DNA from: Bacteroidota bacterium
GTDB taxonomy: Bacteria; Bacteroidota; Bacteroidia; Flavobacteriales; Schleiferiaceae
Assembly (NCBI GenBank): GCA_003045865.1
Contig: PZPB01000015.1
Span: forward strand, 9,736-45,360
DNA length: 35,625 bases
Direction of reading: 5' to 3'
Below the pieces are notes generated by a model, which saw only the letters and a program-made list of their open reading frames with translations, was not told where the DNA came from and did no database searches. The position numbers and the translations under genes were made by a program. Shown piece after piece: positions 23,086 through 35,625 of the stretch. Position 1 is the stretch's first letter; each line of letters opens with the position of its first letter.

Positions 23086-23811
23086 ATGCATTTTGGCCTA
23101 ATTGGAAAAAGTATCGATTACTCCTTCTCTAAGGCCTATTTTACCAAAAAATTTAAACAGGAGAAGCTCGATCATAGCTATGTAAACTGCGACTTAGAGC
23201 AGATTGCCCAGTTTCCCGCATTATTAGAAAGTAAAGAATGGACTGGTTTTAATGTGACCATTCCCTACAAAGAGCAGATTCTGTCTTTCGTGCATCATTT
23301 AAGTCCAGAGGTACAAAGCATTGGAGCCGCCAATGTTATTGCTGTGCATCAGCAAAAGCTTTATGCTTATAACACCGATTATTTAGGCTTTCGCCAAGAT
23401 TTGCTCGAATTCCTATCCGCCGAAAGGCCCGAAAACGCGCTTATTTTAGGTAGTGGCGGCGCATCTAAAGCAGTTATTTATGCTTTACAGCAGATGGGTA
23501 TTAAAACACAAGTAGTCGGTAGAAAAGCACTAGCCGATAAATGGAATTACGAGCAGGCCTCCGCTCGTTTAGCCGATTTCCAATTAGTAGTAAACTGCAG
23601 TCCCTTAGGAACTTTTCCCCATGTAAATGACATGCCCGCCCTGAAGCTTAGCGATAATTTAAAAGGTAAATTCTTCTACGACCTCATCTACAACCCGAAT
23701 GAAACCCGCCTGCTAAAGGAGGCCCGTTTGAGAGGCGCACAAACCCGTAACGGCCAAGGAATGTTGATTCTTCAAGCCGAAGCAAGTTGGGACATTTGGA
23801 CTAAGCCTTAA
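23086..23811 (+). CDS. aroE: Shikimate dehydrogenase
   Basis: NADP(H)-dependent reduction of 3-dehydroshikimate in aromatic amino acid synthesis; 241 residues, the short form common in Bacteroidota. The substrate serines lie in GKSIDYSFSKAYF (Ser13, Ser15), the catalytic Lys62 in FNVTIPYKEQ, and Asp98 in NTDYLGF. The Rossmann glycine motif is GSGGASKAV, followed by VVGRK where the classical enzyme has NRT, so cofactor preference may differ. NCSPLGTFP and GQGMLILQAEASW are the conserved late motifs. It starts three bases after the DUF368 gene. Its last 11 bases overlap the 3' end of the convergent ccsBA gene. Confidence 0.95.
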   Translation: MHFGLIGKSIDYSFSKAYFTKKFKQEKLDHSYVNCDLEQIAQFPALLESKEWTGFNVTIPYKEQILSFVHHLSPEVQSIGAANVIAVHQQKLYAYNTDYLGFRQDLLEFLSAERPENALILGSGGASKAVIYALQQMGIKTQVVGRKALADKWNYEQASARLADFQLVVNCSPLGTFPHVNDMPALKLSDNLKGKFFYDLIYNPNETRLLKEARLRGAQTRNGQGMLILQAEASWDIWTKP

Positions 23812-26800
23812 GTCCCGCCTTTTTTGCCCGCCAAAAAGCGATAATGCTTACTACCACCAAACTTGCCACCGCATAGTAAACCCAATTGGGAATGGGTATC
23901 GGATCGCCTGCCGCATAAGAATGTAAACCCGAGAGGTAATAATTCACCCCGAAATAGGTCATTATAATGGAGCTTAAACCAAAAAGAGTCGCGAAATTAT
24001 AAGCAAATAGACCCGATACTTTGGGTACTAAACGCAGGTGCAAAATAAAGGCGTAAACCAATATACTAACGAGAGCCCAAGTTTCTTTGGCATCCCAGCC
24101 CCAGTAGCGTCCCCACGATTCATTGGCCCAAACGCCGCCTAAATAGGTACCAACGCTTAGCATAAACAAGCCGCCAATTAGGGTCATTTCACTAATAAAT
24201 GACATCTCGCGCATAATGCCACGCAAGCGATTAAAGTTGGCTGGCTTAATAAATATCATCAGTAATAGGTTAATCAAACCGATAATGGCGCCCAACATTA
24301 AGAACCCATAGCTACCCGCTTCTAAAGAAACGTGAATAGTAAGCCAATAGGACTTTAAAACCGGTACCAGCGGTGTAATTTCTGGATTGAGATAACTAAG
24401 CATGGCGATCAATAAAACTACCCCCGCCAAAATATTGGTAGCGGCCATGGCTCCCGGAGATTTCCTGCTGAAAAGAATTCCCGCCAAGGTGCTCGTCCAA
24501 GCAATGTAAATCATCGATTCATAACCATTACTCCACGGAGCGCGCTCACTAACATACCAACGTAAGCCTAATCCGAGGGTATGAAATACAAAGGCTAAAA
24601 TTAACAGAGCCACTAAACCAGTTTGTATTTTATTAAGTTTCCAATCAGCTTTAAAAACACCCGTAAACAGAAGTACTAAAAAGGCCAAGCCTAATAAGGT
24701 ATAAACCAGCGCTAGGCGATTAAATATCTTCGCATTATTCAGCCAAATTTCGGCCGATTGCTGAGTTTCACTGGGAATCACCGCACTACCCTTATCCTTT
24801 TGAAAATCGCTTAAAGCATTAACCAAAGCATTGGCTTCAGCCAAATTATCCGTGCGTAAGGCGGTACGATAGGCACTAAAAAATTTCTCTGCCACGGGAC
24901 TTTCCGAACCATGGGTTGCAACCCAACTATTATTGGGGTCATCGATTAAAGGCACCAAGCGCAGTAAATATCCCGAGAGCAGCATATTCACAATATTCAC
25001 CCGTTCATCAGCATTAATCAAAGCCTTATCAAAAGTGCTACGTTCTGCGGCAGCCTTGGTGTTGGCTGTTTGAATTTCCTCCGATAATTTATAGGAACCA
25101 TCTTTATTAAAGAAATCGCGATAAGCCGCGTGCTTGCCATCAATGCCTAAATATTCAGCTAATTGACCTTCCTTATCTAACTTGATAAAAGGGAGGCCAT
25201 ACCAATTTTCGTTATGGGCGAAAATGGATAAAATTACCTGATCGGCATTAAGCTCATTATAGCTTTCACTCCCGTATACTTTGCGCATTACCTCACGACT
25301 TAAGGTATGCATGGGCTTCATTCTACCGCGCACATCTTGCACCACCAGCTTACTAAAAAGACTGCTGTGGCTTTCACTCACTGTTGGTATCGCAGGGCTT
25401 ACTTTTTCTTGTGCTTGCGCAGATGAGTTCGTAAAGATGCTAATACCTAAAGCGACAATGAGAACTGTTCTGGCAGAGCGCAATTTTTTAATCTTCTGCG
25501 AAAGCTCATAAAAACGGGTGTTCTTACTTAAAAGCGTCATAATCATTCCTAAGGTGAGCAAAGCGTAGCCCAAATAAGAAACCCAAGTTCCCCAAAAATC
25601 GTGGTTTACACTAAGATAGGTTCCCAGTTCGTCGCGATCATAGGAAGATTGAAAAAAGCGATAGCCACGATAATCTAAAATGTGATTCATGAAAATGCGA
25701 TAATCGCTAAAATAGCCCAGCTCCTGATCCAAAATTTTAACATCGCTGGCAAAAGATGCCGGACTGTTCGTACCCGGATAGCGCTCCATTTCAAACTTAT
25801 CCAGCTTTAAGCTGAAGGGTAAGGTCATCACTTTCGCACCGTAAGCCACGGAAACGGCCAAGTTAGTATTGCCGAAGTTCTCACCTCTGCTATACACTCC
25901 TTTTTGACCGATGATAAAGGCCTCTTCCTTTTGGCCATTTATATCCACTTGCATTTTAAGGGCAACCTGGCTCGAGTTAGAAATTTTCGGGTCGCCCGCG
26001 ACCATAACTTCTTTAACCGATTTATTAAAATCCGCAAAAACAAAACGACTACTGCCGCGAGTATAAAGGGATCGCATTACCAAAGGAAAAACCTTGCCTT
26101 CCTCAGGTACCAAAGTATCTAAAGCTTGAGTAGCCATCGTCATCTGCGTCATTAACAGATCACTAGCAATGCGCAGCTCACCTTCGGTATAAAAAATATT
26201 TACCTGATTCGGCTTAAAGGTATTGGTGAAATTAAAAGCCTGTCCACCAATAAATTTCGATTCGCCAAAGGCTAAGAAATAATCCTTTCTACCACCTTCG
26301 CCTGCCATTACGATTTTTAGGAGATTTTCGCCGTTGGCATCTTCTACTAATTCGGTGCTGGGATTGGGAAGGAAATCTTCCAATTTCACTTTAATGAGAT
26401 CATTGCCAATTTGATATTCCTTCTCAAAATGGTTGTTCCCGAGAGAAGCGAATAGAACCGCTTCATCCACCTGATATTCCTGTCCGTTTTTAAAGAACTT
26501 AATGCCAAGATAGGTTTTAGCACTTAAAAATGTATTGGACTGCTCGCCTTGGCGAATGCCCATCATTCCTTCGAAACCCACATAGCGCGTTAGGGCCGCA
26601 CCAATAATGATAATTACCATTGAAGCATGGAATAGCAGGAGAGACCAGCGCTTACGCTGAATGAATTTATAACGAAGGATATTCTGAATTAAAGTTCCCG
26701 AAAAGAGAACTAAAAGCACTTCAAACCAAGTAGCCTGATAAACCACTTTTTGGGCCGCATCGGTACCAAAATCATTTTCTATAAAAGTGGCTACGCCAAT

Positions 26801-26899
26801 GGCGATGGCGAAAAGTAGTAGATAAACCAAGGCCGCTTTTTCATTAAAAAAACCGATCCAAAGTTTTAGCAGAGGAGACTGAGAAGGTTTATTCATCAT
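23801..26899 (-). CDS. ccsBA: Fused cytochrome c synthetase CcsBA (ResB-CcsA)
   Basis: Attaches haem to CXXCH motifs of exported cytochromes (system II maturation); inner membrane, 1032 residues. The ResB half comes first: membrane helices at about 16-37, 55-75 and 87-107, the haem-handling histidine in LLFHASMVIIIIGAALTRY, then a long periplasmic part to about 430 and a helix at about 435-455. A second periplasmic region (about 500-740) leads to the CcsA half with its helices. That half has the tryptophan-rich WWD motif WANESWGRYWGWDAKE at 924-939 and histidines in LTIHVSLEAGSYGF and ILHLRL. It is the last gene of the multihaem cytochrome operon and overlaps the lipoprotein stop by four bases (ATGA). 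Fused forms include NrfI of epsilonproteobacteria. Confidence 0.95.
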   Translation of the reverse strand: MMNKPSQSPLLKLWIGFFNEKAALVYLLLFAIAIGVATFIENDFGTDAAQKVVYQATWFEVLLVLFSGTLIQNILRYKFIQRKRWSLLLFHASMVIIIIGAALTRYVGFEGMMGIRQGEQSNTFLSAKTYLGIKFFKNGQEYQVDEAVLFASLGNNHFEKEYQIGNDLIKVKLEDFLPNPSTELVEDANGENLLKIVMAGEGGRKDYFLAFGESKFIGGQAFNFTNTFKPNQVNIFYTEGELRIASDLLMTQMTMATQALDTLVPEEGKVFPLVMRSLYTRGSSRFVFADFNKSVKEVMVAGDPKISNSSQVALKMQVDINGQKEEAFIIGQKGVYSRGENFGNTNLAVSVAYGAKVMTLPFSLKLDKFEMERYPGTNSPASFASDVKILDQELGYFSDYRIFMNHILDYRGYRFFQSSYDRDELGTYLSVNHDFWGTWVSYLGYALLTLGMIMTLLSKNTRFYELSQKIKKLRSARTVLIVALGISIFTNSSAQAQEKVSPAIPTVSESHSSLFSKLVVQDVRGRMKPMHTLSREVMRKVYGSESYNELNADQVILSIFAHNENWYGLPFIKLDKEGQLAEYLGIDGKHAAYRDFFNKDGSYKLSEEIQTANTKAAAERSTFDKALINADERVNIVNMLLSGYLLRLVPLIDDPNNSWVATHGSESPVAEKFFSAYRTALRTDNLAEANALVNALSDFQKDKGSAVIPSETQQSAEIWLNNAKIFNRLALVYTLLGLAFLVLLFTGVFKADWKLNKIQTGLVALLILAFVFHTLGLGLRWYVSERAPWSNGYESMIYIAWTSTLAGILFSRKSPGAMAATNILAGVVLLIAMLSYLNPEITPLVPVLKSYWLTIHVSLEAGSYGFLMLGAIIGLINLLLMIFIKPANFNRLRGIMREMSFISEMTLIGGLFMLSVGTYLGGVWANESWGRYWGWDAKETWALVSILVYAFILHLRLVPKVSGLFAYNFATLFGLSSIIMTYFGVNYYLSGLHSYAAGDPIPIPNWVYYAVASLVVVSIIAFWRAKKAGLKA

Positions 26900-27654
26900 G
26901 GAACCAAAGTCGCATTTTCAATTATCAAATCATAATGATAACCAGCGCCAAAATCGCGATCTAAAACCAATGTGCCTTTAATAGTAACTATATGTCCTGC
27001 GGGCACACCTTCCATTGAGGTGGCCACTAAATCGAAATCATCAAAACTACCATCCTTTAAATGCAGCCAATTGCGATCCATAATGGCAGGATTTACCTTC
27101 ACCACTTTGGCGGTAATTTGTACTTCCTTATTGGCATATTTCTCCGAATTAGCCAGTAAATCTTTAATCTTTATGGAACCCTCACGATCGTAATCGGTTT
27201 CCGAAATTGGACTTGATTGCTGTATTCCCACTAATTTATCAATACTACTGGCTCCCGCTGCTGGGGCATTTTTTGCTCTTAAATCAGACACTAAATAAAT
27301 CCGATCAAAGCTGCGATTAAACTCCGTGCTGAAATAGTCGGTTTTATACAAACCATCACCGTAAATATAAGTTTCACCTTCGGCAAAACTTCCTTTTATG
27401 GTGGCTATCCAGTATTCATCTTCACCTTCTGAAACGCGTAAGTACGAATAACGATCGCTCTCTAAAATCTCTAATGCTTTTACTTGATGTTCCGCTTTGT
27501 TGCTGTTCGCTTTGTTTGAACCGGGCTTTTCAAATATCGATTGTGCCGCTTGTTCCGCTTCGGGTGAATTCTGTTCTTCAATCTTCAACGGGCCATTCGA
27601 ACAGGCCATCATTCCACTTACTAGTAAAAGGCTTAGTAATTTTTCCTTCTTCAT
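26896..27654 (-). CDS. Putative lipoprotein with NrfJ-like and OB-like regions
   Basis: 252 residues with an export signal ending in MMACSNG, so probably a lipoprotein (the lipobox is loose). The first region, residues 55-125, has VKALEILESDRYSYLRV, DEYWIATIKG, and FSTEFNRSFDRIYLVSDL. This pattern (tyrosine-rich strand, W-A strand, Ser/Arg-Thr/Ser-Phe turn) I recall from NrfJ-type proteins encoded beside CcsBA and multihaem cytochromes. The second region, about 165-252, with IKIKDLLANSEKYANKEVQITAKVV-type strands, WLHLKDGSF and HIVTIKGTLVLD, looks like an OB fold of the bacterial YdeI/BOF kind. A role in assembling or protecting multihaem cytochromes is inference. It starts one base after the barrel gene and overlaps ccsBA. 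Confidence 0.75.
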   Translation of the reverse strand: MKKEKLLSLLLVSGMMACSNGPLKIEEQNSPEAEQAAQSIFEKPGSNKANSNKAEHQVKALEILESDRYSYLRVSEGEDEYWIATIKGSFAEGETYIYGDGLYKTDYFSTEFNRSFDRIYLVSDLRAKNAPAAGASSIDKLVGIQQSSPISETDYDREGSIKIKDLLANSEKYANKEVQITAKVVKVNPAIMDRNWLHLKDGSFDDFDLVATSMEGVPAGHIVTIKGTLVLDRDFGAGYHYDLIIENATLVP

Positions 27655-27655
27655 C

Positions 27656-29275
27656 TTAAAAATTAAATCTTTTTGTCAATCTTACATTTAATCGATAGCT
27701 GGTTTGTTGACCCGTTTTCGACATCTCTCCCAAAGTTCCTAAATCCCAGCCGCTCTTCATTTTAAAGCTTATTTCGGCACCATAATAGGCTTGGGCTGGC
27801 ACCACAATTTCACGGCCAATGTAAAGATAGCTTAGGTAGCGGTAATACACCGCCGAATAAACTTTCCCATTGCCAAAATAATGCGAATATCGCGCTGAAT
27901 TTACTTCACTGCGCAAGTAAAGCGAGCTATTTAAATTAAAGCGATAACTAAAAGTTCCGCCAATCCAAGGCACCCGATTATAGCTGATATAGGCTTGAAT
28001 GTTTTCCCCTTGCTTTCCGGCATTTTGCTGAAAACGAGAGTTATAGCTAAGACCTAGATTGGTGCGTTTACCAATTTTAAAATTAGAGCGGGCCCTTAAG
28101 CCTTGTCTTGCTTCTTGATTTGCCAATAAGCGCTCCACTTCCGTGTCGTAGGTCTCAAAAAATATAATTTGTCGGCGGGTATCGTAGGATCCAAAAATCC
28201 GCCACCAATCGGTTATTTTTAAACTAGACGAAATAAACAGGGAGCTTAATTGTAATCCCGATTGGGCCGCGGCGGTATCGTAGTTCTCGTATAAATCCAC
28301 TTCCGTAGATGCGAATATATTGAGGCGTGAGCCCACCTGATTAGACGTTTGCAGATAGATAAAGCGACGATCTATCGCTCCTTGATTGCGTTGCTCTAAA
28401 AATCCTGCGGTAACTTGACTGCGAAATTTCTTGCCCCCTTTCTCGATGCCTAGATAGGCGCCATATTGAAACAGGTTGGTGTTAACTCCAAAATTTTGGT
28501 AATCGGGACGGAAGCCAGCTAAGGCCCCTACAAAATATCCGTTTTTGTTATATTCCCCTTGCAGCCCGTCTATCGCCCCCAAGGAAGACGCTTTGCGATT
28601 TATTTTACGGCCTATACTAAGCTCAAAATCTTCTTTCTTATAACTAAGGGCTAAGTTGTAAACATTAAAGCGGCGGTTATAACCTCTAAAATCGTCGTAC
28701 AACCTTAGGTTTTCTTGGTAATTAAAATAGCTTTCCACCGAAAAGTTACTTTCAGAGATATTGTCAATATTGAAATTTACCCGCCCAACAAAACGGCTAT
28801 TTCCTTGGTTCTTATTGTCAGGCGCAAAAATGGTATACGATGCTGCACTTACGCGCGCATTTATTCTTTCCTTCTTTTCAAATTTCGGCTTCTGTTCGGT
28901 TTTGGTTTCCGCTAAGATTGTAGCACTGGTATCCCTTTTCTGGTCCGCTATTTGAACCACTTCGGCTACTTCTTCTTCCAATTCAAAGGGAAGTAATTTC
29001 TTAAGAAAAAATTGCTGTCCTTTACTTAAAGTACAATCACCAATTTGCTTAGCAATACAAGATACAGAAGACTTGTTTACCACCATCAAGCAAGCTTGGA
29101 CGCCTAACTTTTCATCTTGGTAAAAAAGAGTATCGCCTTTTTCGATCGCCCTTGTATCTGCGAATCTTATGTAAATATTATCACCAGAAATAAAACTTAT
29201 TTCCCCTTTTATATTCTCTTGCGCCACTATGTTGGCTGTGAAAAATAGAAAGAGAAGGATAATGAGCTTATTCAT
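27656..29275 (-). CDS. Outer-membrane beta-barrel protein of the cytochrome operon
   Basis: 539 residues from the ATG at 29275; an in-frame upstream start at 29302 would overlap the preceding gene and spoil the signal peptide. The signal peptide MNKLIILLFLFFTANIVAQ is followed by a small beta domain (about 20-95, with two cysteines), then a Lys/Glu-rich linker (about 95-140). From about 145 to the end alternate amphipathic strands with aromatic girdles (NFSVESYFNYQENLRLYDDF, FNVYNLALSYKKEDFELSIG, AYISYNRVPWIGGTFSYRF), closing with RLNVRLTKRFNF and a terminal Phe, all typical of outer-membrane barrels of roughly 16-18 strands. The family is unknown to me. Its place two bases behind a 13-haem cytochrome suggests an outer-membrane component of the same system. 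Confidence 0.8.
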   Translation of the reverse strand: MNKLIILLFLFFTANIVAQENIKGEISFISGDNIYIRFADTRAIEKGDTLFYQDEKLGVQACLMVVNKSSVSCIAKQIGDCTLSKGQQFFLKKLLPFELEEEVAEVVQIADQKRDTSATILAETKTEQKPKFEKKERINARVSAASYTIFAPDNKNQGNSRFVGRVNFNIDNISESNFSVESYFNYQENLRLYDDFRGYNRRFNVYNLALSYKKEDFELSIGRKINRKASSLGAIDGLQGEYNKNGYFVGALAGFRPDYQNFGVNTNLFQYGAYLGIEKGGKKFRSQVTAGFLEQRNQGAIDRRFIYLQTSNQVGSRLNIFASTEVDLYENYDTAAAQSGLQLSSLFISSSLKITDWWRIFGSYDTRRQIIFFETYDTEVERLLANQEARQGLRARSNFKIGKRTNLGLSYNSRFQQNAGKQGENIQAYISYNRVPWIGGTFSYRFNLNSSLYLRSEVNSARYSHYFGNGKVYSAVYYRYLSYLYIGREIVVPAQAYYGAEISFKMKSGWDLGTLGEMSKTGQQTSYRLNVRLTKRFNF

Positions 29276-29277
29276 AA

Positions 29278-30294
29278 TTATTCGCTTCCGCGGGGATGGC
29301 AATTATAGCAAGCATTACTTTCAAAGCGATAGCCGCCTACATCATCATGCTCATTGCGCATTTCTGACTCATTACTATGTTCATGACAGTCGATACAACT
29401 AAATAGATTGTAGTTGGAACTGTTGGTATGACATTCCGTGCAAGAGTTCCAAACTCCCTCGTGTGTACCGGAGTAAATAGGGAAATGATTGTCATCGTGC
29501 TGACGGTAGCCTGCTGGTGCCCAACCTGGGCTTAGACTATGACAAAGAGTACAATCGGTGGTAAAGCCAGAAGCGCGATGATCGGGGTTAGTCGCACTGT
29601 TAAAATCATCTAAATGGCAAGAGTTACAATCAGAGGAAACATCAGCATAACTGGTAGAGAGATGACACTCTATGCAATCTACCCCATTATGACCGCCAAC
29701 TAAAGGGAAAAAATAGTGGAAATTTTCACCACCCCAATCTTGTGAAATGGGCTCATGACATTGCACGCAATCCGTTCCAAATCCAGAAGCAATATGATTA
29801 GGAGTTTGGGTGTTTAGATAATCTTCACGGTGACAGTCTATACATTCGCTGCCTAAACGCTCCCAAGCTAAATTATTGGATGAGCGGTGACAATCGCTGC
29901 AGGAAATAACGGCGTGACTGCCTTCTAAAGGAAAACCGTTTTGTTCGTGCAGCTGCGGTATTTCATTAACCAACCAAGAATTTTCATCGTGGCAACGCAC
30001 ACAATCGTTTCCCACCGTCATCTGGTGCACGTCGCTATGGCAAGAAACGCAATTAGGATCGGCATCCGAAAACTCCAAAGTTTTGTGGCAATCCATGCAG
30101 TCTGTCATTTTATGCTGCCCCTCTAAAGCAAAACCCGTTTGGGCATGATCCCAACTAATTTCACTTAAGATTAAAGACCAGCCATCGTTATTATGACATT
30201 CCTTACAGTCTATTTTAAAAGTCTCCCCGTGTGGGTTCTGAGCACTCAGTCCTAGGTGAACGATTAGTGCTAAGATGAATGACAATCTATACAT
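29278..30294 (-). CDS. Multihaem cytochrome c with 13 CXXCH motifs
   Basis: 338 residues, Sec signal peptide at about 1-18 (MYRLSFILALIVHLGLSAQ), soluble periplasmic otherwise. I count thirteen CXXCH haem c sites, from CKECH near residue 30 to CYNCH just before the C-terminal RGSE. There is no lipobox and no T9SS sorting domain. Units of the form SWDHAQTGFALEGQHKMTDC, FPLEGSHAVISC and FPLVGGHNGVDC precede haem sites and match those of the 20-haem neighbour, so the two are paralogues. The ATG lies inside the last codons of the neighbour in another frame (25-base overlap), yet opens a clean signal peptide. Haem needs CcsBA from the same operon. Electron-carrier role is secure; the redox partner is not. 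Confidence 0.93.
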   Translation of the reverse strand: MYRLSFILALIVHLGLSAQNPHGETFKIDCKECHNNDGWSLILSEISWDHAQTGFALEGQHKMTDCMDCHKTLEFSDADPNCVSCHSDVHQMTVGNDCVRCHDENSWLVNEIPQLHEQNGFPLEGSHAVISCSDCHRSSNNLAWERLGSECIDCHREDYLNTQTPNHIASGFGTDCVQCHEPISQDWGGENFHYFFPLVGGHNGVDCIECHLSTSYADVSSDCNSCHLDDFNSATNPDHRASGFTTDCTLCHSLSPGWAPAGYRQHDDNHFPIYSGTHEGVWNSCTECHTNSSNYNLFSCIDCHEHSNESEMRNEHDDVGGYRFESNACYNCHPRGSE

Positions 30295-31904
30295 TGGAAT
30301 TTTTCTATGTTATAATCCGTGGTAAAATCCCCGAAACTATTTTTAACTTGACTCTTATGGCACTCTTTACAGTCCACTTCGGTGTGTTTCCCTTCTAAAG
30401 GAAATTCGGTTTTATTGTGATCGAAGAAACTCGCTTCCCACTCTTTAAGATTATCGCTATGACAAGTTTTGCAATCGGTAATGCCTTCTTTTTCAAACTG
30501 ATTACCATGAATATTATCCTCTGCGTGACAGCTGTAACAATCGCTGGCTAAATCATTAAATTTCTGGCTAAAGCCAAGTTCTAAATTGGCATCTACTTTA
30601 AAGTGGCAAGCGCGGCAATCCGTTTCTTGATGCGCCAATTGGAGGGCAAAGTCCGTTTGATCATGATCAAAATCGATAGTAGCCCAATTTTCTAGCTGAT
30701 GGCAAGATTTACAATCTTGACTCGGATAAAAAGTACTATCAATAAAGCCTTCATGAATATCAACGTGGCATTCTATACAATTCGTACTATTAAATTTAAA
30801 AGTCCACCTTTTATCTTCATTGGGTTTATGACAAGCAAAACAAGGTGTAGCCAGATGCGCTCCTTCTAGCGGATAGTCGCTCGAATCATGATCTTCTAAG
30901 CCATAGCTCGTGTAACTAAACTTTTCCTGTAAACTATGGCACTCTTTACAATCGGGTTTACTTAAATCGGGTTTAATGAATTCCCCTTCATGGTAATCAT
31001 CGTGGCAATCTAAGCACTGGGCAAAGGCAAGGTCACGCTTATAATCTCCTCCAATATGGCATTCGGCACAGGAAACCGTTAAGTGCTGTCCTTCTAATGG
31101 ATAATCGGTTAAATTATGATTGAATTTATTAGAAACCTTAATCTTCTGCCAAGAATTAATACTGTGGCAATCAGTACAAGAATTCCCAAACTTACCATCA
31201 TGCTGATCTTCGTGGCAATCGGTGCACTTAGCAAATGCTATGTCGCTAAACTGTTGAAATTCCTGCCCGTTTCGCGTCGTTTTCTTGTGACATTTTATAC
31301 AGTCCACTTCAACGTGCGCTCCTTTAAGGGGATAATCGGTTTTATTATGATCAAATCCTAAAAGGGTATTGAAATTATCAAAGCCATGGCAATCAGTGCA
31401 AGAATTCCCTAAAGTTGTTTGATGATAATCTACGTGACAGTTTAAGCACTCCTGCTCCATTCCTAAAAAAGTACCCTCTCGTTTTTTAATATCTGCGGAA
31501 GCAATAAAGTCAGGTTTGTGACAATCGCGGCAGTCAATTTTACCGTGCTCTCCTTTTAATTTATAGCCCGTTAAGTTGTGGTCGAATTTTTCTTCATCTA
31601 AGCGAACCGAATTAAAATTTACGCCATGGTGTTCGCTGTGGCAGGAAATACAGGATTTCGCTTTCACTTCGGTAGATGCGTGATAACCGCGATTGTTGTT
31701 AATGAGAAAGTCGAGCGTTTTATGACAATCGAGACAAAGCTGTTCTGAAACCTTCGCCCCTAATTCGTGGCACTTGGTGCAATTAGCCAAGCCTTCTAAA
31801 TCGGCATGCGCCTTAGAGAGTTTCCCTGGCGAAAACTGGGCTGAAAGATTTAGCCCAGCAAAAAGCAGGATTAATAGGGTCGTTATTTTAATTAGCTTTT
31901 TCAA
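30270..31904 (-). CDS. Multihaem cytochrome c with 20 CXXCH motifs
   Basis: 544 residues with a Sec signal peptide (about 1-23, LLFAGLNLSAQ). I count twenty CXXCH motifs, the first CTKCH near residue 42, the last CIDCH two residues from the C-terminus. At least six repeats of the form FDHNKTDYPLKGAHVEVDC, each leading into a haem site, alternate with CHEDQHDGKFGNSCTDCHS-type pairs, giving roughly three haems per 80-95 residues; many extra histidines can serve as distal ligands. It resembles cytochrome c3/c7-like wires rather than octahaem nitrite or hydroxylamine enzymes. The start is TTG at 31904, sharing four bases with the TGA of the flavoprotein gene, and no ATG is available nearby. Periplasmic location is expected. 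Confidence 0.93.
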   Translation of the reverse strand: MKKLIKITTLLILLFAGLNLSAQFSPGKLSKAHADLEGLANCTKCHELGAKVSEQLCLDCHKTLDFLINNNRGYHASTEVKAKSCISCHSEHHGVNFNSVRLDEEKFDHNLTGYKLKGEHGKIDCRDCHKPDFIASADIKKREGTFLGMEQECLNCHVDYHQTTLGNSCTDCHGFDNFNTLLGFDHNKTDYPLKGAHVEVDCIKCHKKTTRNGQEFQQFSDIAFAKCTDCHEDQHDGKFGNSCTDCHSINSWQKIKVSNKFNHNLTDYPLEGQHLTVSCAECHIGGDYKRDLAFAQCLDCHDDYHEGEFIKPDLSKPDCKECHSLQEKFSYTSYGLEDHDSSDYPLEGAHLATPCFACHKPNEDKRWTFKFNSTNCIECHVDIHEGFIDSTFYPSQDCKSCHQLENWATIDFDHDQTDFALQLAHQETDCRACHFKVDANLELGFSQKFNDLASDCYSCHAEDNIHGNQFEKEGITDCKTCHSDNLKEWEASFFDHNKTEFPLEGKHTEVDCKECHKSQVKNSFGDFTTDYNIEKFQCIDCHSS

Positions 31905-33226
31905 TGCTTCTTAACAATTTTACCAAATTTCTTATCTACCTCAATACCGGCTTTTTGTAAGAAGGAAACGGGTAATTCACCCCCTGCGAAAATGTACACA
32001 CGATCATTTAGCAGGCTGCACTCTTCACCTTGCGCATCTGTGTAAACGATATCTTCTTTTCTAATTTCCTTAAGATTGCTTCCTAAAAGAAGCTTAATCT
32101 TACCCGCATCTACGGCTGCATCTAAATTCGTCCTATTTTGAGTCTTAATTCTACCAAATTTCTCTTTACGATAGGATAAATGAACCTCATTATGATCCAT
32201 TAATAACATGGCAGACTCTACCGCGGAGTCACCACCCCCAACAATTACAATTTTCTCACCTTCTATGGTTTCAGGCTCTAATAAGCGATAGGCGACCTTA
32301 ATAGATTGCTCTCCCGGAATATTCAATTTACGCGGGGTACCTCTTCTTCCAATGGCAATTAAAACTTGTTTAGCTCTAAATACCTTTTCGTTTTTGGCGA
32401 TAACCTTAAAGTTATAGGCACCCTCGGGTATGATTTGGTCTATTTCACAGTGCTCCTCTACTTCAATCTCGTTTCGGCCCAAAGCATCATTCCAAATAAT
32501 AAGCAATTCTTCTTTACTCGTATTCACTAGTTTCAACTTTCCGTAGAGCGGTAAATTCATCGGTTTAGTCATAACGACCTTGCTGCGTGGAAAAGTAAAA
32601 ACGGTACCGCCGAGGCTATCTTGATCTACAATTTTAAACTTCAGGCCCTTACTCTTGGCCGTTAAGGCAGCCGCGATTCCTGCTGGACCGGCACCAATAA
32701 TAAGTAAGTCGTATTCATCCGATCTTCTTTCGGGCCTTATACGGGCAATATTTTCTACCGCTTGCACCCCTTGCTCTGCAGAGTTTTTAATTAAGCCCAT
32801 ACCGCCGAGCTCGCCGGCAATATAAATCCCATTAATATTGGTTTCGTAGCTAGGCTTAACATGTGGTAAATCTACCCCGCGCTTTTCGGTACCGATGCGT
32901 AACGAAATGGCGTCTACTGGACAAGCATGAAAACAAGCGCCATGGCCAATGCAACTGGAGGCATTAATTACTGTGGCCTGCCCATCGATTAAGCCTAAAA
33001 TATCTTGTTCGGGACAAGCCGTAACGCATGCCCCACTGCCAATGCAGGTATTTAAGTCAATATAAGGATGCAATGAAACCGGCTCAAAACGGCCATCTTC
33101 TTTCGCCTGTGCTACTTTTTTCTGCACCTCTTTTGAGCGTTTTGAGCCACGATATACATAATAGAAAACGATCCCTAGGCAAACTAAGAAGGTAAAACCG
33201 TATATGATTAATTCTTCGGTGCTCAT
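31901..33226 (-). CDS. Membrane-anchored Fe-S/FAD oxidoreductase with permuted flavoprotein fold
   Basis: 441 residues from the ATG at 33226; a start 33 codons upstream would lie wholly inside the cytochrome b gene. One membrane helix (about 5-25) is followed by a basic stretch, placing the rest in the cytoplasm. A two-motif ferredoxin-like domain (61-103) reads CIGSGACVTACP and CIGHGACFHACP: the second Cys of each standard CXXCXXCXXXCP is Ser64 and His95. Next comes ETNINGIYIAGELGG...EQGVQAVENI (128-160), normally the C-terminal FAD segment of TrxB-like enzymes, then the FAD motif GAGPAG (178-183) and the NAD(P) motif VGGGDSA (329-335). The chain ends at FAGGELP...GKIVKK without that segment. 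Likely passes electrons between NAD(P)H and the cytochrome b next door. Confidence 0.9.
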   Translation of the reverse strand: MSTEELIIYGFTFLVCLGIVFYYVYRGSKRSKEVQKKVAQAKEDGRFEPVSLHPYIDLNTCIGSGACVTACPEQDILGLIDGQATVINASSCIGHGACFHACPVDAISLRIGTEKRGVDLPHVKPSYETNINGIYIAGELGGMGLIKNSAEQGVQAVENIARIRPERRSDEYDLLIIGAGPAGIAAALTAKSKGLKFKIVDQDSLGGTVFTFPRSKVVMTKPMNLPLYGKLKLVNTSKEELLIIWNDALGRNEIEVEEHCEIDQIIPEGAYNFKVIAKNEKVFRAKQVLIAIGRRGTPRKLNIPGEQSIKVAYRLLEPETIEGEKIVIVGGGDSAVESAMLLMDHNEVHLSYRKEKFGRIKTQNRTNLDAAVDAGKIKLLLGSNLKEIRKEDIVYTDAQGEECSLLNDRVYIFAGGELPVSFLQKAGIEVDKKFGKIVKKH

Positions 33227-34068
33227 TAGAATATCCAGGTATAACCCATGGTTAAAGTGGCGCCAATATGCACAACCACAATTATTAACATTATCAGGGC
33301 GAAGGGGCGATGCGCCACATGCCAAAGTTTAAAGAGTTTTTGCATACTGGCCAAACGAGCAATTCTTCTTTGCATTTTCCACTCTAAGGCCGCTGAATTC
33401 AGCAAAAGAAACTGCTGTTGCTCATCTAGATTTAAGGAAGAAACACGTTTGCTTATTTTTTTTAAGTAGTTTCTTTCAAAGAAAAAATTTCGGGGACCCC
33501 AAGCATAAGGATTTTTAAAACTAAGGATGTCCGTTTTTAATTTGGTATCAGACCCTATCAGATCATCCAGAATGGACAAGCCTGTTTCTTGCTGTTTTCT
33601 AATTTCCGCCAAGCTCAATTCTTTACCACTAATAGTGCGGGGAATTTGATTGTAAATATAACGCCCCACTACCCCACTAGCTACTACAATTACCATAGAC
33701 CAGAAAGCAATGGAAACGATTCCGCCAAATTTAAAAGTTGTGTGAAAAAGAATCATAATAGGGCCTACCGTGCAAAGGAAAATGTGAAATTCTAAGAGGT
33801 AGCGCAAACGAATGAAGCGCTCTAAATAGCCATATTTCTTTGCGGTTATATACAGCACTACTCCCACCAAAATTAAAAGCGTTCCAAGAACTCCGAGGCC
33901 CTGGCCGAAAATTCCGCTAGCTTTTAAATAGGCATGCGAGTCTTGGTAAAATCGCTCTTCCAGCGGAGTCTGATAATACTCATAACCCTTGATAGATAAA
34001 TAGATAGTTACCAAAAGGGTCACTAATACCATCGACCAAATATAAATCTGATGCCAAAGACGTGACAT
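33226..34068 (-). CDS. Predicted di-haem cytochrome b-like membrane protein
   Basis: 280-residue inner-membrane protein, first in the cytochrome operon. Hydrophobic helices lie at about 9-27, 54-75, 90-110, 117-137 and 252-272. Two of them each carry a pair of histidines 14 residues apart: His95 and His109 (FHIFLCTVGPIMILFH) and His253 and His267 (HRPFALIMLIIVVVH). This HX13H pairing in two helices is the signature of two stacked b haems, as in cytochrome b and ferric-reductase/NOX transmembrane domains. A charged, probably cytoplasmic domain (about 140-245) separates the pairs. It would carry electrons across the membrane between the flavoprotein (one-base overlap, TAATG) and the periplasmic cytochromes. 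I do not recognise a named family. Confidence 0.82.
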   Translation of the reverse strand: MSRLWHQIYIWSMVLVTLLVTIYLSIKGYEYYQTPLEERFYQDSHAYLKASGIFGQGLGVLGTLLILVGVVLYITAKKYGYLERFIRLRYLLEFHIFLCTVGPIMILFHTTFKFGGIVSIAFWSMVIVVASGVVGRYIYNQIPRTISGKELSLAEIRKQQETGLSILDDLIGSDTKLKTDILSFKNPYAWGPRNFFFERNYLKKISKRVSSLNLDEQQQFLLLNSAALEWKMQRRIARLASMQKLFKLWHVAHRPFALIMLIIVVVHIGATLTMGYTWIF

Positions 34069-34118
34069 GATTTTACAGTTAAAAATTAGTTTGGTCAGAA
34101 ATTGTATAATTCATTTTA

Positions 34119-34126
34119 CAAACATA
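34119..34126 (-). promoter_or_regulatory. -7 promoter element of the cytochrome operon
   Basis: Minus-strand TATGTTTG, an exact TAnnTTTG match about 50 bases before the first ATG at 34068. The -33 region lacks TTG and instead holds the inverted repeat at 34138-34153, which suggests an activator- or repressor-dependent promoter. Confidence 0.62.
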
Positions 34127-34137
34127 AACAGAATATG

Positions 34138-34153
34138 TGGCCCATGTGGGCTA
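34138..34153. promoter_or_regulatory. Inverted repeat, candidate operator upstream of the cytochrome operon
   Basis: TGGCCCATGTGGGCTA forms a near-perfect dyad (core GCCCA/TGGGC), GC-rich in an AT-rich gap. It begins 12 bases upstream of the -7 element of the cytochrome operon and 71 bases before the response regulator ATG. Confidence 0.45.
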
Positions 34154-34223
34154 GATTCTTATTTTAAACAAATCTTAAGAATTGTTAAGAAAGGGCTTAA
34201 GTATTAATCTGCAAATTTGCCAC

Positions 34224-34880
34224 ATGCGAGTATTAGTAGTAGAAGATGAAATAGGAATTGCCAACTTTCTTCAGCAAGGACTGGAAGAAGAAGGCTACCG
34301 AGTTAGTGTTTGTAATAATGGAAGGGAAGGCATGAAGCTAGCCCTGGAGGAAGAGTTTGCGATCCTTCTACTTGATTGGAACCTACCAGAATACAGTGGA
34401 TTACAAATCTGCGAAAGCATACGTGCAAAGGGTATAAATAGCCCAGTGATATTTTTAACAGCGCGCGATACCAGTGAGGATATAATTAAGGGATTGCAAG
34501 CGGGCGCCAACGATTACATTAAAAAGCCCTTCAATTTTAGTGAGCTGTTAGAGCGCATGAAGGTGCAACTTAGAGGTAAGGAAGCACCGAAAAGATTAGT
34601 GCTAGGTGCCCTAGAAGTTTTATCTGCCAGTAGACAAACTTTTGTGAATGGTGAGGAAATTCATCTCACTCAAAAGGAATTTGAATTACTCAGTTACTTA
34701 CTCGAACAAAAAGGGGAAGTTTGTTCACGCACCAAAATTATTGAAGACGTATGGGACATTCATTTCGATTATGAAACCGGAGTGATAGATGTTTATATAA
34801 ATGCTTTGCGCAAAAAGCTGGGCGAAGCGGCTGGACTATTAAAAACAGTGCGCGGTGTAGGCTACATGATTCAAAAATAA
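34224..34880 (+). CDS. OmpR/PhoB-family response regulator
   Basis: 218-residue cytoplasmic transcription factor. The receiver domain (about 1-115) has the acidic pocket Glu7-Asp8, phosphoacceptor Asp51 in LLLDWNLPEY, Thr79 in FLTARD and Lys101 in KKPF. The winged-helix domain (about 125-218) carries LTQKEFELLSYLLEQKGEV, the recognition region DVYINALRKKLGE and the closing VRGVGYMIQK. The ATG at 34224 gives MRVLVVEDE, the normal start; the ATG-less 14 codons upstream are not conserved-looking. Its TAA shares one base with the ATG of the histidine kinase gene. It is divergent from the cytochrome operon with 155 bases between the start codons, so control of that operon is a reasonable inference. 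Confidence 0.95.
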   Translation: MRVLVVEDEIGIANFLQQGLEEEGYRVSVCNNGREGMKLALEEEFAILLLDWNLPEYSGLQICESIRAKGINSPVIFLTARDTSEDIIKGLQAGANDYIKKPFNFSELLERMKVQLRGKEAPKRLVLGALEVLSASRQTFVNGEEIHLTQKEFELLSYLLEQKGEVCSRTKIIEDVWDIHFDYETGVIDVYINALRKKLGEAAGLLKTVRGVGYMIQK

Positions 34881-35625
34881 TGAACTTAAAAATTAAAGAT
34901 CGCTTAGCCCTAAACTACCTAGTGGCCACTTCTATTTTAATGGCAGCGGTTTTTAGTAGTATCTACTTTGTGGTAGAAGAAGTGGTTATGTTTAATATAG
35001 ACCGCGATTTAAGGTATGAGCTAAATAAGCATACCAAAGAAGTTGAAGTGGTTGATAACAAGCTCAGCTTTGTAAATATGGAAGAATGGGAAGAACGCGA
35101 GCATCGAGAGGTGCAGGTGAATCCCGTTTTTATTCAAATTGTAAACGTGAAGGGCGAGATCATGGGCCGTTCACCCAATCTTAAAAACGATTCTTTGCGC
35201 TTTTCCGATGCTCATACTAGTGAGTTCTACAATCAGTTAATCGGTAATCAAAGAGTACGAACTGCTCGTATTGCTTTAAAAAACCGGGGGACCATAAGTG
35301 GCTATATTTTAGCTGCCATGTCGCTCGAATCATCCATCTCGGTGCTGCAAAAACTGCAAAATATTTTGGTGGTGTCTTTTATAGTGGTGCTAATTGTCCT
35401 CTTTTTCTTTTCACGCATCTTAGCCGGTAGACTTATACGCCCGATCAAAAATTTGAGTGAAAGCATGGATCACATCAATCGCAATAATTTAGATGAACGA
35501 GTAGAATTACCCAGCAAAAAGGATGAAATCTATAGTCTCTCTTTTAACTTTAACCGACTGCTAGACCGCATTGAAAAAGCACTTATTAGAGAACGGCAGT
35601 TTACTGCTGATGCATCGCACCAACT
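34880..35625 (+). CDS. Sensor histidine kinase, cut by the window end
   Basis: The frame opens at the ATG at 34880, which overlaps the response regulator stop (TAATG), and runs off the window after 248 codons. A first membrane helix at about 10-33 is followed by a periplasmic sensor region (about 35-160, with an acidic stretch EEWEEREHREVQ), then a second helix at about 161-181. A HAMP linker follows (LAGRLIRPIKNLSESMD to about 232) and then the start of the H-box RERQFTADASHQ, where His247 is the phosphoacceptor. The missing part should contain the rest of the dimerisation helices and the ATPase domain. It is the cognate kinase of the adjacent regulator. The signal is unknown, and no CXXCH or other cofactor site is seen in the sensor region. 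Confidence 0.93.
   Translation, partial: MNLKIKDRLALNYLVATSILMAAVFSSIYFVVEEVVMFNIDRDLRYELNKHTKEVEVVDNKLSFVNMEEWEEREHREVQVNPVFIQIVNVKGEIMGRSPNLKNDSLRFSDAHTSEFYNQLIGNQRVRTARIALKNRGTISGYILAAMSLESSISVLQKLQNILVVSFIVVLIVLFFFSRILAGRLIRPIKNLSESMDHINRNNLDERVELPSKKDEIYSLSFNFNRLLDRIEKALIRERQFTADASHQ

Follow-up and report, generated by a model that had tools for sequence, protein, structure and literature searches.

The window analysed here, a 35,625-nucleotide stretch of contig PZPB01000015.1 from a Bacteroidota bacterium (genome of 3.05 Mb in 169 contigs, completeness 89.9%), carries on its minus strand a run of open reading frames (ORFs) for a membrane cytochrome b (CytB), a flavoprotein with iron-sulfur (Fe-S) motifs (Flavo), two multihaem cytochromes (Cyt20 and CytN), an outer-membrane barrel, a lipoprotein and the haem c ligase CcsBA [Table 1]. 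A preliminary description of this DNA had read them as a seven-gene electron-transfer operon with 33 CXXCH sites. All seven ORFs were indeed found to adjoin one another between positions 23801 and 34068, the junctions from CytB to CcsBA measuring, in order, -1, -4, -25, +2, +1 and -4 bases, and the 33 sites are accounted for by 20 in Cyt20 and 13 in CytN. Flavo starts at the ATG at 33226, which overlaps the stop of the gene upstream by one base, and the barrel probably starts at the ATG at 29275.

Table 1 The operon of the window and the motif at its head (positions in the window)
Feature	Position	Strand	Description
CytB, 280 aa	33226..34068	-	membrane cytochrome b, homologous by sequence to the PCC3 inner-membrane protein
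Flavo, 441 aa	31901..33226	-	Fe-S motifs and a putatively permuted YpdA/thioredoxin-reductase-like FAD/NAD(P) domain
Cyt20, 544 aa	30270..31904	-	20 CXXCH; signal peptide (by eye); PCC3 periplasmic cytochrome homologue
CytN, 338 aa	29278..30294	-	13 CXXCH; c7-like three-haem modules
Outer-membrane barrel, 539 aa from ATG 29275	27656..29275	-	distant PCC3 porin homologue
Lipoprotein, 252 aa	26896..27654	-	lipobox MMAC (by eye); weak GW-domain match
CcsBA, 1032 aa	23801..26899	-	ResB-CcsB fusion, haem c ligase
TATGTTTG	34119..34126	-	matches TAnnTTTG, ahead of CytB

Homology of the operon core to the PCC3 porin-cytochrome system

PCC3 is a porin-cytochrome system predicted from Proteobacteria, in which He et al. 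(2017, PMC5566968) saw a likeness between the HX13H pairs of the inner-membrane protein and those of NADPH oxidase and ferric reductase, their proposal being a quinone-serving b-type protein with two haems; no functional test of PCC3 was found in the literature examined. By sequence comparison, the core of the window operon is a homologue of PCC3, CytB and Cyt20 being homologous to their counterparts and the barrel distantly so. The hallmarks of the PCC3 inner-membrane protein, a length of about 300 residues, an SGXXG sequence and two WX3HX13H motifs, are recognisable in CytB, whose histidine pairs are His95/109 and His253/267, whose SGXXG reads SGVVG and which is without one of the two tryptophans. 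Among 82 CytB rows (duplicate loci included), two HX13H pairs were present in 81, SGXXG in 80 and both tryptophans in 64, and profile comparison of CytB with the inner-membrane protein of 14 Sideroxydans loci returned 99.7% with an E-value of 5e-26. Cyt20 corresponds to the PCC3 periplasmic cytochrome of about 21 haems, its profile scoring 339-449 bits on the periplasmic cytochromes of Sideroxydans (7 of the 14 compared), although the window count is 20, not 21. The barrel stands in the place of the PCC3 outer-membrane porin at a greater distance: comparison with 13 Sideroxydans porins gave 79.6% and an E-value of 1.5e-5 over 387 columns, and a plain profile search did not reach them.

Shared by the two forms are an inner-membrane protein with HX13H pairs and SGXXG, a periplasmic cytochrome of 20-27 haems, a second large multihaem cytochrome and a barrel. 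The Bacteroidota form differs in having Flavo inside the operon, a shorter barrel, 20 or 23 haems instead of 21, 24 or 27, and a c7-modular second cytochrome, unlike the extracellular one of Sideroxydans. The preliminary description had known of no named system with this exact gene set, a view that was dropped because the core matches PCC3. Whether a complex of the same gene order had already been described receives a divided answer: the core does bear a name, while PCC3 is uncharacterised in function and the lipoprotein and CcsBA are additions to it. What is new is the presence of a PCC3-type set in Bacteroidota and, going by record titles, of CytB and a large cytochrome close to Flavo in eleven further phyla, Flavo as an overlooked conserved partner of PCC3, and the growth of CytN by three haems. 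Among the top literature matches, outside which lay most subscription papers and all preprints, no paper tied PCC3 to Bacteroidota or to a flavoprotein. By word search, "flavoprotein" was absent from the main texts of PMC5566968, PMC10734462 and PMC12442390. "FAD" and "4Fe-4S" each had a single hit, in PMC10734462, and none in the other two papers; the "4Fe-4S" passage does not concern PCC3.

Other described systems fit the operon less well. Nrf nitrite reductase was ruled out, as no NrfA model stood among the matches listed for the seven operon proteins (the top 25 in the case of Flavo). MtrCAB, MtoAB and PioAB share with the operon a barrel and multihaem cytochromes, and Cyt20 weakly matches the DmsE family (47.6 bits against a cut-off of 192.2) and the Protein Data Bank (PDB) entry 6r2q_A, which we take to be MtrA. 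In the operon, CytB and Flavo stand where a CymA-type protein would be, and Cyt20, with its twenty haem motifs and sub-threshold DmsE score, is not a decahaem cytochrome of the MtrA type. Since the barrel profile found no PDB match at E up to 1 and none of 26 barrel members matched the MtrB-type Pfam family at E up to 0.1, Mtr/Mto membership was rejected. The operon is thus distinct from Mtr-type systems and from Nrf, as the preliminary description had held. PCC4 resembles CytB in that its inner-membrane protein has two HX13H pairs, and one PCC4 subgroup has an adjoining gene for an Fe-S protein (pfam13247), annotated in one genome as a single gene with the inner-membrane protein (PMC5566968); this Fe-S protein differs from Flavo, and PCC4 is set apart by its description, the PCC3 and PCC4 inner-membrane proteins being reported as without significant overall homology (PMC5566968). 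Published passages on conduits of Methylobacter and Ignavibacteria dealt with other types of porin.

The Flavo protein and its association with CytB

Flavo comprises an N-terminal hydrophobic anchor (assigned by eye), two Fe-S motifs, C..S..C...CP and C..H..C...CP in the window protein, and a reductase domain with NAD(P)- and FAD-type sequence patterns, the C-terminal reductase segment of which precedes the GxGPAG motif. The preliminary description had called it permuted, and two sequence tests support Flavo being a circularly permuted reductase. When the segment was moved to the end, the match to the thioredoxin-reductase model grew from 1-252 to 1-297 of 300 positions (75.5 to 84.6 bits) and the YpdA model score rose from 150.6 to 158.9 bits. 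Similarly, the rotated family profile matched the YpdA-like protein of the same genome in one piece (154.3 bits), as against 141.1 bits plus an out-of-order 4.1 for the profile in native order; the thioredoxin-reductase-like paralogues at loci L063 and L148 were too distant for a permutation signal either way. FAD and NAD(P) domains are common to Flavo and to thioredoxin reductase and YpdA (Bdr), the standard domain order of which Flavo does not follow. Among solved proteins, the best relative is Bdr, a bacillithiol disulfide reductase (7a7b).

In a set of 123 Flavo rows, from which nine duplicate or re-fetched loci and rows shorter than 380 residues had been dropped, the C-terminal segment came first in 120, its pattern came after in two and the FAD pattern was missing in one. 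The second cysteine position of the first Fe-S motif was occupied by S in 65 rows, C in 36, T in 11, A in 9 and G in 1, and that of the second motif by H in all 122 rows with both motifs; the L100 row, with a single Fe-S motif matched, also has His. No CxxC was present in the 30 residues before the NAD motif in the rows where that motif was found. A conserved YR...F.R.K stretch, which by analogy we take as a sign of NADPH preference, suggests that Flavo may prefer NADPH over NADH.

Within the phylum, Flavo was detected in 28 of 296 genomes, the window's own included (E up to 1e-60), and CytB in 29 (E up to 1e-20), all 28 Flavo genomes also having CytB (Fisher p 2e-38, a descriptive value given that the genomes are related). 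In the genome with CytB and no Flavo (G140; locus L155, G140:C56), the CytB match has two in-frame stops and an adjoining barrel fragment of 94 residues, so that the operon there looks decayed. Of the 27 other phylum carriers fetched, 24 had CytB, the barrel and a cytochrome with 15 or more haems no further than 12 kb from Flavo; in the three exceptions the locus was at a contig edge (L035), CytB was displaced by intervening genes (L040, with CytB at L153) or Flavo was on a separate contig (L045 and L154). Two gene orders recurred, CytB-[TPR-like]-Flavo-Cyt20-CytN-barrel and CytB-[TPR-like]-Cyt20-CytN-barrel-Flavo, the TPR-like gene missing from some loci. In the window's family, Flavo occurred in 9 of 60 genomes, including 7 of 7 drawn from the window's genus, and the five loci fetched from the eight other carriers all repeated the seven-gene order of the window, their cytochromes again having 20 and 13 haems (one of the five, L151, appears to be from the same genome as the named locus L058). 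The scattering in relatives that would have spoken against a unit was looked for and not seen, and the order kept across family and phylum loci ruled out a chance gene cluster.

Flavo and CytB are moreover fused in three proteins, from a delta-proteobacterium (L125) and two Planctomycetota (L132 and L137); the Flavo of L135, at 748 residues, has the length expected of a fusion and is a candidate only. Because of this pairing and these fusions, CytB and Flavo look like one enzyme. NADPH oxidases and ferric reductases combine two HX13H pairs for b haems with an FAD/NAD(P)H part. CytB shares the two pairs, and the dehydrogenase of the operon would be a separate, permuted reductase with Fe-S motifs; by analogy, CytB-Flavo may work like these enzymes whatever its family membership, a search of 24 CytB members at E up to 1 having found no match to Pfam Ferric_reduct. 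The same members matched DUF4405 in 12 cases (best 1.2e-5) and cytochrome b561 in 3, and the CytB profile gave one poor match against PDB sequences. At L105 (Bacteroidetes UBA7368), no CytB was found, and the neighbours of Flavo include two proteins that have two CXXCH apiece; another use of the flavoprotein is possible at this locus.

The wider spread was surveyed in 80 loci, the best 80 of 439 relatives, and more exist. Record titles and tree labels assigned them to Bacteroidota, Ignavibacteriota, Chlorobiota, Pseudomonadota, Acidobacteriota, Planctomycetota, Calditrichota, Gemmatimonadota, Nitrospirota, Nitrospinota, Zixibacteria, Myxococcota/Deltaproteobacteria, Kryptoniota, Kiritimatiellota and Eisenbacteria. 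Of these, Nitrospinota, Kryptoniota and Kiritimatiellota were represented by one locus each without the full set of CytB and large cytochrome near Flavo, and each of the remaining twelve labels (Bacteroidota and eleven others) by at least one locus with it. Overall, both CytB and a large cytochrome were encoded no more than 12 kb away in 49 of 77 non-duplicate loci, the 28 others including some contig ends, three fusions and L135. Emticicia aquatica, Yeosuana marina and Maribellus luteus are among the named carriers, and the carriers include Bacteroidota with an ordinary heterotrophic lifestyle. In a quick Flavo tree of the 123 rows, the window grouped with its family, and rows from Saprospiraceae and other Flavobacteriales lay nearby. 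A set of 25 rows with support 92 united Sideroxydans, the remaining Pseudomonadota and a single Myxococcota row. On this tree, at least five changes are needed for the 33 Bacteroidota-labelled rows, which suggests transfer.

In the genus to which Sideroxydans record L117 belongs, 29 of 34 genomes carry Flavo. Of 33 places matched in Sideroxydans, 16 were fetched, and in 14 of these CytB lay within 12 kb, as did a cytochrome with 15 haems or more, Flavo being divergent from CytB in 13 of the 14; L193 and L195 were without CytB and a large cytochrome near Flavo. A CytB match was present in 7 of the 8 proteobacterial genomes reached via Flavo loci. In G364 (one contig of 3,003,656 bases), which we presume to be S. 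lithotrophicus ES-1, locus L192 holds CytB, cytochromes of 21 and 17 haems and a 765-residue porin, followed by Flavo on the other strand. In ES-1 the PCC3 clusters are Slit_0867-0870 and Slit_1446-1449, with 17 haems in Slit_0868 and 21 in Slit_0869 (PMC8788666). At L193 (G364:C1 around 528859), no CytB or large cytochrome lies within 9 kb of Flavo, which is perhaps the partner of the second cluster.

Multihaem cytochromes, accessory genes and surroundings of the operon

The two cytochromes were compared over 48 loci, kept from 62 with a strong barrel after removal of 4 duplicates and of 10 more without exactly two complete cytochromes before the barrel. CytN ranged from 10 to 70 CXXCH, 44 of the 48 counts being equal to 1 modulo 3; the four off-step proteins (21, 23, 24 and 30) each have one CX3-4CH motif, and counting it would put three of the four back on the step. 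The spacing of the sites revealed a repeated three-haem unit of about 70-77 residues. CytN thus grows by three-haem modules, from 10 to 70 haems. The partner cytochrome had 20 haems in 36 loci and 23 in 10, one further locus having 16 and another 19. The tail of CytN after the last haem is of at most 24 residues and a lipobox was found in 0 of 48, which excluded export through the type IX secretion system (T9SS) or as a lipoprotein. Outside this count, a Saprospiraceae locus (L082) has an ORF of 1979 residues with 78 CXXCH; the largest haem count known to He et al. was 85, also in PCC3 (2017, PMC5566968). In L078 (Bacteroidia, 21314 bases), long cytochromes flank the barrel on both sides, one with 37 CXXCH and the other with 50.

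All twenty haem motifs of Cyt20 are invariant in its alignment (A4). Its profile found as best PDB match 3ov0, which we take to be GSU1996, a c7-type polymeric cytochrome of Geobacter. Chains of three-haem c7 modules are common to these polymers and to the operon; the known Geobacter polymers are periplasmic and are not known to be encoded with a CytB-Flavo-barrel set. In the 14 Sideroxydans loci, the periplasmic cytochromes have 21, 24 or 27 haems, and the extracellular ones 10 to 27 with no three-step pattern. The CytN profile scored 292-461 bits on the former and 37-59 bits on the 14 latter.

The lipoprotein matches the GW domain at 21.9 bits, the cut-off being 21, and CcsBA matches ResB and Cytochrom_C_asm. 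Close to the operon, the two were labelled in some Bacteroidota and nowhere else, CcsBA frequently lying upstream or on the other strand. The operons of other lineages include a TPR-like protein that begins with a hydrophobic stretch (by eye). CcsBA is the sole copy found in the 89.9%-complete genome and is therefore not specific to the operon, so that the notion of a dedicated ligase, the operon's "own" in the preliminary description, was abandoned.

At the head of the operon, the -7 element noted in the preliminary description does exist as a match at 34126 to TAnnTTTG, which we take to be the Bacteroidota -7 consensus; it is weak when taken alone, because the motif scan, the one look that was taken for promoters inside the block, found six further places on the minus strand between 23700 and 34260. 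Divergent from the operon, an OmpR-type response regulator and a histidine kinase (by eye) are encoded at 34182-35623 on the plus strand, and it is possible that this pair regulates the operon. The spacer between them and the operon contains an imperfect palindrome, CCCA-CA-TGGG, at 34141-34150.

Proposed electron route and competing explanations

We favour, with a probability of roughly 0.55, the reading of the operon as a PCC3-type trans-envelope electron conduit with a dedicated, NAD(P)H-linked flavoprotein at its cytoplasmic end. NAD(P)H, more likely NADPH, would reduce FAD in the permuted reductase domain of Flavo, from which electrons would travel one at a time, by way of two unusual Fe-S clusters of which one may have a His ligand, to the two b haems of CytB, as in enzymes of the ferric-reductase/NADPH-oxidase kind. 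Cyt20 would carry them across the periplasm, and CytN with the barrel to or through the outer membrane, where excess reductant may be dumped on extracellular or outer-membrane acceptors; the lipoprotein and CcsBA would be assembly helpers. The route from flavin and Fe-S centres through the inner membrane and periplasm to the outer membrane, as outlined in the preliminary description, fits the co-occurrence, synteny and fusions, and its NAD(P)H end, its direction and its reach to the surface are conjectural.

The published PCC3 model, in which CytB exchanges electrons with the quinone pool, electrons enter from Fe(II)-like extracellular donors and Flavo is an accessory, seems to us an unlikely description of this operon. 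He et al. argued for it from the di-haem motif together with what the clusters contain and where their hosts live (PMC5566968), and PCC3 is common in Gallionellaceae (PMC10734462). The model leaves no role for Flavo, which is present in 28 of 29 CytB genomes and fused in three proteins. A main role in Fe(II) oxidation also does not fit ES-1, because both PCC3 clusters were downregulated there on Fe(II) relative to thiosulfate (PMC8788666).

The same parts could run inward, electrons from an extracellular donor reducing NAD(P)+ directly, redox parts being reversible and the system turning up often in a lithotrophic genus (Flavo in 29 of 34 genomes). Reduction of NAD(P)+ from Fe(II)-like donors is uphill, and no energy coupling is visible. 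Two COX1-family genes were found in the window genome and RuBisCO was not found in the 89.9% covered, other carbon-fixation routes not having been searched, which makes lithoautotrophic uptake less likely in this organism. We hold inward flow to be improbable, even more so than the quinone model, and outward flow to be the more likely direction in the window genome.

The least probable of the explanations weighed is a conduit that stays within the envelope, serving periplasmic or outer-membrane acceptors (disulfides, peroxides, oxygen), with the barrel an ordinary porin. The missing lipobox and T9SS-sized tail of CytN and its shortness in the window, at 13 haems, would agree with it. Counterparts of CytN nevertheless reach 70 haems, and a wire of that size, if extended, exceeds the width of the periplasm; furthermore, cytochromes and barrel are inherited together, and the barrel is a distant homologue of the PCC3 porin.

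Several points weigh against the conduit reading we prefer. The NAD(P)H carrier, the direction and the surface exposure are read from sequence, CytB may have a quinone site, and CytN has neither a lipobox nor room for a T9SS tail to explain how it would reach the surface. The Sideroxydans "extracellular" cytochromes are not clear CytN orthologues, as judged from their profile scores. The association with Flavo is itself incomplete: G364 has two Flavo matches, one adjoining its first PCC3 cluster and one alone (L193), and none at the position inferred from locus number for the second cluster (Slit_1446-1449); the Flavo genome G362 (L110) gave no CytB match; and L105, L106 and L127 have no large cytochrome near Flavo despite at least 5.6 kb on both sides. 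Finally, in strain CL21, a relative of ES-1, the PCC3 inner-membrane gene of one copy was raised when oxidising iron (PMC12442390), as the quinone model would have it.

More tentatively, and with less confidence than for the window operon, PCC3 as a whole may be an NAD(P)H-driven, quinone-free transmembrane flavocytochrome machine in a dozen phyla, a prokaryotic counterpart of NADPH oxidase made with a permuted Fe-S flavoprotein. It would discharge reductant of the cytoplasm directly along a modular wire, the length of which evolves by three haems at a time between 10 and 70 or more. Since 2017 PCC3 has figured as a candidate for iron oxidation under a quinone-linked model, and Flavo offers it a direct link to cytoplasmic NAD(P)H. 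If this is true, reduction of the haem wire should depend on NAD(P)H, unlike in the quinone model. The candidates for extracellular electron transfer would be widened to many Bacteroidota, and the CytN set would provide a natural length series of haem wires for relating length to function.

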